From contig NZ_CAKLPY010000001.1 in NCBI RefSeq assembly GCF_923079645.1, forward strand, positions 310,001 through 374,000: DNA of 64,000 bases, written 5' to 3'. Numbering within the stretch: position 1 is the stretch's first letter; each line of letters opens with the position of its first letter. Under the pieces are notes generated by a model that worked only from the letters and a program-made list of their open reading frames with translations, was not told the origin of the DNA and did no database searches. Of the stretch, positions 19,222-20,991 are shown piece after piece. The translations under genes and the position numbers were made by a program. Source of the stretch: Emticicia aquatica. Its GTDB lineage: Bacteria; Bacteroidota; Bacteroidia; Cytophagales; Spirosomataceae.

Positions 19222-20991
19222 ATGGAAAAATTTGTTGTTTCAGCCCGTAAATACCGCCCGATAACTTTTGATACAGTTGTTGGTCAGTCGCACATTACAA
19301 CGACTTTGCAAAATGCCATTCGTACAAATCATTTGGCTCAAGCATTTTTGTTTTGTGGCCCTCGTGGAGTAGGAAAAACAACATGTGCAAGGATTTTGGC
19401 CAAAACAATTAATTGTCAGAATCTTACAGAGGATATTTCACCTTGTAATGAATGCGAATCGTGCAGGAGTTTTAATAATAATGCTTCATTTAATATTCAC
19501 GAACTTGATGCAGCTTCAAATAATTCGGTAGAAGATATTCGTAATTTAACCGACCAAGTACGTTTTCCTCCGCAAACAGGTAAATATAAAATTTATATCA
19601 TTGATGAGGTTCACATGCTTTCGCAGGCGGCTTTTAATGCTTTTTTGAAAACCCTCGAAGAGCCACCGAGCTATGCAATTTTTATTTTGGCAACAACGGA
19701 AAAGTACAAAATTTTACCTACAATTTTAAGCCGTTGCCAAATATTCGATTTTAACCGAATTCAGATAAAAGATATTGCCGACCATTTAGCAAATGTGGCT
19801 GAAAAAGAAAATATAACGGCTGATTATCAGGCACTTGAACTTATTGCTCAAAAAGCAGATGGTGGTTTGCGTGACGCACTTTCAATGTTTGATTTGAATG
19901 TTACATTTTCTTCAGGAAATGGATTGACTTATCAGACAGTCTTAGAAAATTTACATATTCTTGATTATGATTACTATTTCCGAATGACGGCTGCGTTATT
20001 GTCAGGAAGTGTTACTGAAGCTTTTTTATTGTACAATGAGATTTTAGAAAAAGGTTTTGATGGACACCAATTTGTGGTGGGATTGAATGAACATTTCCGA
20101 AATTTGATGGTAAGTAAAGACCCTCAAACTGTCAAATTACTCCAAGTTGCCGATTCTATTCAGCAGCGATATTTGGAACAATCAGCAAAACTTTCTTTGC
20201 CATATATATTTTCTTCGATGAGTGTTGGAAGCCAGTTAGATATTAATTACAAATCTGCAAAAAATCAGCGTCTGCACGTAGAAATAGGCCTAATGAAACT
20301 CTCTCAAATTGAACAAGTTTTGAATTTGAATGAGCTACCCAACATAGGGGACGAAAAAAAAAATCCTAACGCGGTAGAAGTAGCAAAAGTTGAGGTGAAA
20401 AAGCCAACTTCAGAGCCAATTCAACCAGCTTTGAATGAGCCAAATAACATTAAAACTTCTTCTTCAATTGAAGAAAATGTAATTATAAATACAGTAGCAA
20501 AACCGCTTCCAGTTACGCGTCCTTCGTTGGCTTCTTCTAAACTAAGGTCAACTGTTGATTTAGAAACCTCAGTATTAAATACGAAGTCAAATTCTTTTCA
20601 ACGTGCTGATAATGAGCTTTCTACGTCTATTCTTAATGAAGCTTTTACTTTTGAGACAATGCAGAAAGAATTATATTTTTTTGCAGATGAGCGTGACAAT
20701 GAAACGCTGAAAGTGATGTTGAAACGAGCGTTTGAACTAGAAGGAACAACACTAAAATTACAATTAGATAACCAAATTCAATTGGATGCTTTAATGCAAT
20801 TGAAACAAGATTTGGCTACTTATCTTCGACAAAAATTACGTAATTCATCCATTCAGATTTTGGCAGAAATTGTTGAATCTACAACCGAACGTCGTCCATA
20901 TACGGCTCAAGAAAAGTTTGAATATTTAGCCAATAAAAATCCTGCTTTATTACAATTGAGAGATAAACTAGGTTTGGAATTAGTATTTTAA
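19222..20991 (+). CDS. dnaX: DNA polymerase III subunit tau/gamma
   Basis: A 589-residue clamp-loader ATPase. The Walker A loop 'GPRGVGKT' is at 46-53, followed by a zinc site CX9CX2CX2C ('CQN...CNECESC'), Walker B with sensor 'IIDEVHML', and 'ILSRCQIFDF' with the SRC arginine finger. Domain III ends near residue 370, after which comes a long, less conserved tail (about 380-589). Exactly at that boundary is a run of ten A (20354-20363, codons 378-381), where a one-base slip in either direction meets a stop within a few codons. This could give a gamma-like short form (see findings). The stop codon is in a terminator stem. Confidence 0.97.
   Translation: MEKFVVSARKYRPITFDTVVGQSHITTTLQNAIRTNHLAQAFLFCGPRGVGKTTCARILAKTINCQNLTEDISPCNECESCRSFNNNASFNIHELDAASNNSVEDIRNLTDQVRFPPQTGKYKIYIIDEVHMLSQAAFNAFLKTLEEPPSYAIFILATTEKYKILPTILSRCQIFDFNRIQIKDIADHLANVAEKENITADYQALELIAQKADGGLRDALSMFDLNVTFSSGNGLTYQTVLENLHILDYDYYFRMTAALLSGSVTEAFLLYNEILEKGFDGHQFVVGLNEHFRNLMVSKDPQTVKLLQVADSIQQRYLEQSAKLSLPYIFSSMSVGSQLDINYKSAKNQRLHVEIGLMKLSQIEQVLNLNELPNIGDEKKNPNAVEVAKVEVKKPTSEPIQPALNEPNNIKTSSSIEENVIINTVAKPLPVTRPSLASSKLRSTVDLETSVLNTKSNSFQRADNELSTSILNEAFTFETMQKELYFFADERDNETLKVMLKRAFELEGTTLKLQLDNQIQLDALMQLKQDLATYLRQKLRNSSIQILAEIVESTTERRPYTAQEKFEYLANKNPALLQLRDKLGLELVF

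Follow-up and report, generated by a model that had tools for sequence, protein, structure and literature searches.

An A10 run at the gamma/tau boundary of dnaX in Emticicia aquatica and other Bacteroidota as a predicted RNA polymerase slippage site

How could the single dnaX reading frame of Emticicia aquatica deliver a short gamma protein next to the full-length tau, and is the run of ten A's at the boundary between the two the site where this would happen? In the 64-kb stretch of DNA that was analysed (the window), dnaX lies at 19222..20991 on the plus strand, as do the run, the stops, and the tau-only region given below, and an ORF together with NCBIfam and Pfam matches supports a tau of 589 aa in the zero frame, to which a predicted gamma is added. 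The gene (GC content 35%) matches the gamma/tau equivalog PRK14971 (NCBIfam) with a score of 804 bits (cut-off 685), and TIGR02397 (dnaX_nterm) covers residues 6-360. Pfam matches to delta', the lid, and domain III were also obtained, the last of which ends at residue 366 and falls just under its cut-off (24.3 versus 24.4 bits). The A10 run, the predicted slippage site (20354..20363), occupies codons 378-381, starting and ending at the second position of the first and the last of these codons, and reads GAA AAA AAA AAT. It is followed by the tau-only linker and C-terminal region (20364..20991), where the PRK14971 match extends to residue 587. As the zero frame continues for 208 more codons past the run, the gene is a single ORF and does not have a two-ORF layout.

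Both shifted frames are closed shortly after the run. One extra A leads to a stop after one codon (TAA, 20367..20369), while the frame that is entered through the loss of one A or the gain of two is closed by TAG at 20375..20377, after four codons in the case of the loss. Simulated dnaX mRNAs with A11 and A9 gave products of 382 aa (C-terminus DEKKKS, 43.1 kDa) and 384 aa (C-terminus DEKKILTR, 43.4 kDa), respectively, and the gain of two A's corresponds to 385 aa. The A10 and A13 mRNAs gave 589 and 590 aa (66.6-66.7 kDa). An earlier note on this DNA had located the run past domain III and had read ILTR and a stop after the loss of an A, S and a stop after a gain, and an open zero frame. The sequence, the end of the Pfam match, and the simulated mRNAs bear this out; the mass that it gave for the short product (about 42 kDa) has to be raised to the computed 43.1-43.4 kDa.

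The A10 at the gamma/tau boundary is likely to be a programmed transcriptional slippage site. RNA polymerase would add A's to the A10 of dnaX or drop them from it, and the slipped fraction of the mRNA would run into a nearby stop, thereby yielding a gamma of 382-385 aa alongside the 589-aa tau; we infer that the slip is one of RNA polymerase and that both proteins are made. In relatives with reversed roles (two-ORF genes, see below), the same slippage would yield tau and not gamma, and the two products may be made in such balance that a single-base change exchanges the roles without loss. For Thermus thermophilus dnaX, transcriptional slippage on an A9 run has been described in the portions available of PMC1088944 and PMC5009743. 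To the extent covered by these portions, the Thermus gene and the window gene are alike in having a single tau ORF, a late A run, stops in both shifted frames, and a gamma that is (or, in the window, would be) the slipped product. They differ in the length of the run (A9 versus A10), and the window gene belongs to the Bacteroidota, where slippage is predicted from sequence alone.

One alternative would be a functionless A-rich linker that arose by chance in a gene of low GC content. Among the 89 linker codons of the window dnaX, 21% have stops in both shifted frames within four codons and 11% have shifted-frame stops as near as those at the run, which speaks for this alternative. Since double stops are common in such an AT-rich gene, the stops alone are weak evidence and the relatives are decisive. 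The earlier note had judged position, run, and double stops to be beyond chance; this holds for the run and its position, which are conserved in relatives, and not for the stops taken alone. Furthermore, A10 is avoided in this genome, which makes its location in dnaX noteworthy. It occurs once in the window where 13.5 occurrences are expected from dinucleotide shuffles, and the 4.94-Mb genome holds 41 overlapping A10 matches and 36 exact isolated A10 runs. When 30 of these 36 runs were read, nine were found within a sense ORF of at least 80 aa, and only in dnaX and in an rplO-like gene did the run lie more than 40 codons from either end. The rplO-like ORF (L383:981-1772, in the same genome but outside the window) encodes 263 aa with an L15 match and a weak helix-hairpin-helix match, and its A10 is situated at the domain linker. 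This A10 was absent from both relatives that were read (n = 2), which, like the avoidance of A10, argues against a chance linker in dnaX.

For the comparison with relatives, dnaX was classified from 265 genomes: 11 of the genus (own genome included), 135 from the rest of the family, 53 from the order, 23 from the class, and 43 from other classes, the latter taken from 82 genomes and picked for family spread rather than at random. Second copies (L140 and L261) were dropped from the classification. Among the matches listed, four of 150 family genomes (G010, G013, G014, and G035) and one of 54 order genomes (G293) had no full dnaX match. The family includes Dyadobacter, which NCBI places in the Spirosomataceae, Cytophagales. 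A run of at least eight A's was found at the dnaX junction in 208 of the 265 genomes, distributed as A10 in 174, A9 in 23, A11 in 9, and A8 in 2, with no run in the remaining 57. The exact A10 was present in 11/11 genomes of the genus (own included), 90/135 of the rest of the family, 42/53 of the order, 14/23 of the class, and 17/43 of the other classes; 70 of the 114 genera include at least one gene with it. The earlier note had named disappearance of the run from close relatives as evidence against slippage; no such loss occurred within the genus, and each of its 11 genomes has both shifted frames stopped within five codons. Over the 234,269 nt of codons that precede the site in the 208 genes, only two other runs of at least eight A's occur. 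The 174 A10 runs use all three codon phases (108/55/11), so it is not a fixed peptide that is conserved. The run is present at the same place even in dnaX genes of up to 65% GC. Conservation in relatives excludes chance, and a functionless linker appears extremely improbable.

For a second set, the 80 best of at least 574 matching loci were taken from records that carry a title, among them Pedobacter, Hymenobacter, Chitinophaga, and Aquimarina; it includes many MAGs without a genus name and shares at least one genome with the 265. Among these best 80 loci, 58 had a run of at least eight A's (A10 45, A9 8, A11 3, A12 1, A13 1) and 22 had none; half of the latter (11) bear the title Bacteroidaceae, Bacteroides, Prevotellaceae, or Prevotella. 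Seven Bacteroidaceae/Prevotellaceae-like loci without an A run (L286, L288, L303, L310, L320, L343, and L345) carry a varying GRSP-like peptide at the dnaX junction, mostly followed by LK or IK.

The surroundings of the run were subsequently compared by reading frame. The 208 A-run genes comprise 143 single-ORF genes, which have the layout of the window gene, and 65 two-ORF genes. One gene that was first counted as single-ORF (L256 in G067, a fragmented genome of the family) has a TAA in the zero frame that overlaps its A10 at the start, which the slippage model does not explain; the frame counts were repeated without it (n = 142). Compared with expectations from the rest of the linker codons in these genes, an extra A leads to a stop within five codons in 114/142 single-ORF genes (39.8 expected) and the loss of one A in 71/142 (40.7 expected); both shifted frames are stopped within ten codons in 113/142 (29.0 expected). 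When one gene per genus was kept, both shifted frames were stopped within ten codons in 51 of 61. The tau region lies in frame 0 in 126 of the 143 single-ORF A-run genes. In the two-ORF genes, the zero frame is stopped within ten codons past the run in 64/65, the long open frame is the one with an extra A in 62 and the one with a lost A in three (L126, L160, and L177), and the remaining shifted frame is stopped within five codons in 60/65. Using tblastn, tau homology was found in the open shifted frame of 38 of the 65 two-ORF genes (36 with one extra A, 2 with one lost A) and in no frame of the other 27, for which the class rests on the open frame alone. The stop patterns thus indicate that, in either layout, one frame continues and the other two terminate near the gamma boundary.

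Counted without a tree, six genera contain both layouts, and in two pairs of genes with otherwise alignable flanks the layout is swapped by a single A, namely L072 (A10, single-ORF) versus L100 (A9, two-ORF) and L030 (A10, single-ORF) versus L089 (A9, two-ORF). On a quick gene tree with SH-aLRT support only, built from 136 of 219 eligible sequences (no more than three for each genus and state, leaving out those with a late-starting match such as L259), a rough count over 129 labelled sequences gave at least 23 layout changes, compared with a mean of 38.1 and a minimum of 33 in 50 label shuffles. Homopolymer assembly error could account for single cases but hardly for uniformly two-ORF genera.

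Such swaps between A9 and A10 relatives may also be read as the mark of a phase-variation tract, whose length is changed in the DNA itself by replication slippage. Indel mutation is typical of homopolymer tracts, which counts in favor of this explanation. On the other hand, all 11 genomes of the genus and, more widely, 174 of the 208 A-run genes share a length of ten, and loss of the replicase tau would presumably be costly. Phase variation is considered highly improbable.

This leaves the question of which machine would slip. The ribosome might make gamma instead, either through -1 frameshifting or by sliding on the lysine-encoding A run. In favor of this, any A10 includes an A_AAA_AAN heptamer (A_AAA_AAA), and ribosome sliding on lysine A stretches has been reported in the portion available of PMC4363877. 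Moreover, the open frame can also be reached by a -1 ribosomal shift in 62 of the 65 two-ORF genes, and in the window AGGGG (20346-20350) is found just 5' of the run, with a spacing of 4 or 7 nt to a heptamer. E. coli dnaX has a Shine-Dalgarno-like element about 10 nt upstream and a stem-loop a few nucleotides downstream. The outcome there is the same, gamma and tau from one gene. A -1 heptamer and an upstream stimulator are described for E. coli dnaX in the portion available of PMC3711429. The A10 of the window gene contains the heptamers A_AAA_AAA and A_AAA_AAT, though not A_AAA_AAG. In contrast to E. coli dnaX, GGAGG is absent at 10 nt upstream, and the downstream sequence, with fold z scores of 0.27 and 0.25, forms no stem-loop. 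No Rfam match to the window dnaX was found.

GGAGG occurs within 25 nt upstream of the run in 11 of the 208 A-run genes, and the mean downstream fold z is about -0.3 to -0.6 (76 single-ORF and 45 two-ORF A-run genes). Three observations count against slippage: some Shine-Dalgarno-like 5-mer is present within 25 nt in 27 of the 208, the 50 nt upstream fold somewhat better than chance (mean z -0.96 for two-ORF genes, -1.91 for the window), and 57 of the 265 genomes have no run. A heptamer would require only six to seven A's, but 206 of the 208 genes have runs of 9-11, and the deletion frame has an early stop as well. For L126 and L160, both two-ORF and with tau homology, the open frame is out of reach for -1 shifting, and judged by the open frame alone the same applies to L177 and L338 (second set), although single-base assembly errors might account for a few such genes. 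The run length of 9-11, the rarity of GGAGG, the small amount of downstream folding, the guarding of both frames, and the few frames that -1 shifting cannot reach together favor the polymerase over the ribosome, without proving which of them slips. A ribosomal origin of gamma at the A10 is accordingly regarded as unlikely.

How a ribosomal solution may look can be seen within the same family. Of its 35 dnaX genes without an A run, 34 (for example, L018, L071, L102, L109, L252, and L258) have a zero-frame -1 heptamer, either A_AAA_AAG or G_GGA_AAG, with GGAGG upstream, a layout that resembles that of E. coli dnaX; the exception (L060) has neither an A run nor this cassette. In 32 of the 34 cassette genes, 10 nt separate the end of the GGAGG from the heptamer; in L057 and L087, where a second GGAGG lies nearer, the first is again at 10 nt. 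In the single-ORF cassette genes, the -1 frame is stopped within five codons in 26/26 and the +1 frame in only 5/26, and in the two-ORF cassette genes the zero frame stops at the very next codon in 8/8. Many cassette genes have a stem-loop about 5 nt downstream whose stem sequences differ (GTCCCC/GGGGAC, GCCCC/GGGGC, and GTCAACCTC/GAGGTTGAC), in others the fold is weak, and none is seen in L071, L091, and L097. Over the 40 nt downstream, z averages -1.38 for the 34 cassette genes, which are unthinned and come half from one genus, versus -0.33 and -0.40 for the thinned A-run genes. No Rfam match was obtained for the 15 of 34 cassette loci that were tried. All 13 cassette genes that the tree includes group together in one clade (SH-aLRT 81), in which ribosomal frameshifting is predicted in place of the A10. 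The GGAGG that is present throughout this clade, often together with a stem-loop, is what the window gene lacks at 10 nt, and this is a further argument against a ribosomal slip at its A10. A GGAGG cassette is odd here because, according to the portion available of PMC9976891, Bacteroidia ribosomes are reportedly blind to Shine-Dalgarno sequences.

Taken together, we lean towards a gamma/tau switch operated by RNA polymerase on A10 throughout the Bacteroidota, whose length would be under selection, whose frame would have flipped many times, and which would once, within this family, have given way to a ribosomal cassette convergent on that of E. coli.

The availability of the Shine-Dalgarno interaction as the cause of this exchange was checked through prfB in 30 family genomes (L348-L377) and was set aside. 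The prfB frameshift motif was found in 29 of the 30 genomes, among them both dnaX types, with L376 unmatched by the pattern used. Of the 16 ribosomal-type genomes, 15 have AGGAGG in this motif, and of the 13 other genomes that showed it, 11 have GGGGG; since the ribosomal-type genes form one clade, this contrast is a single event and provides no test.

Separately, two uncultured Bacteroidales (L300 and L328) have no A run; a single TAG interrupts their reading frame where gamma and tau would part, tau homology continues past it in the same frame, and the two share a sequence context with a CGCC-GGCG inverted repeat. Stop-codon readthrough is a possible further route in these two loci. The TAG pattern was absent among the 295 class genomes sampled.

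Earlier work had already pointed in the direction of slippage. In a 2013 GeneTack survey, as far as the portion available of PMC3711429 goes, 17 two-ORF dnaX genes were listed, nine of them with ten A's, and slippage was proposed. Their layout is the same as that of the 65 two-ORF A-run genes described here; tau would be the recoded product in those genes, whereas it is the zero-frame product in the window gene. A 2016 review (PMC5009743, likewise available in part) notes, with dnaX as an example, that at an efficiency of about 50% one nucleotide can invert which product is the recoded one. With slippage on A9 in Thermus and the slippage proposed for A10 in two-ORF dnaX genes, the window gene joins a known kind. 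A phylum-wide A10, its survival through frame flips, and the exchange for a ribosomal cassette were not found in the literature searched, which was seen partly in excerpt and covered few subscription papers.

If the reading put forward here is true, much of the phylum would set the make-up of its replicase through the stuttering of RNA polymerase, and two-ORF dnaX genes would be misread when they are called broken. The family holds the A10 and an E. coli-like cassette side by side, together with natural one-base swaps of the default subunit. Close relatives would thereby allow direct tests of why gamma has been retained and of whether one mechanism can stand in for the other.
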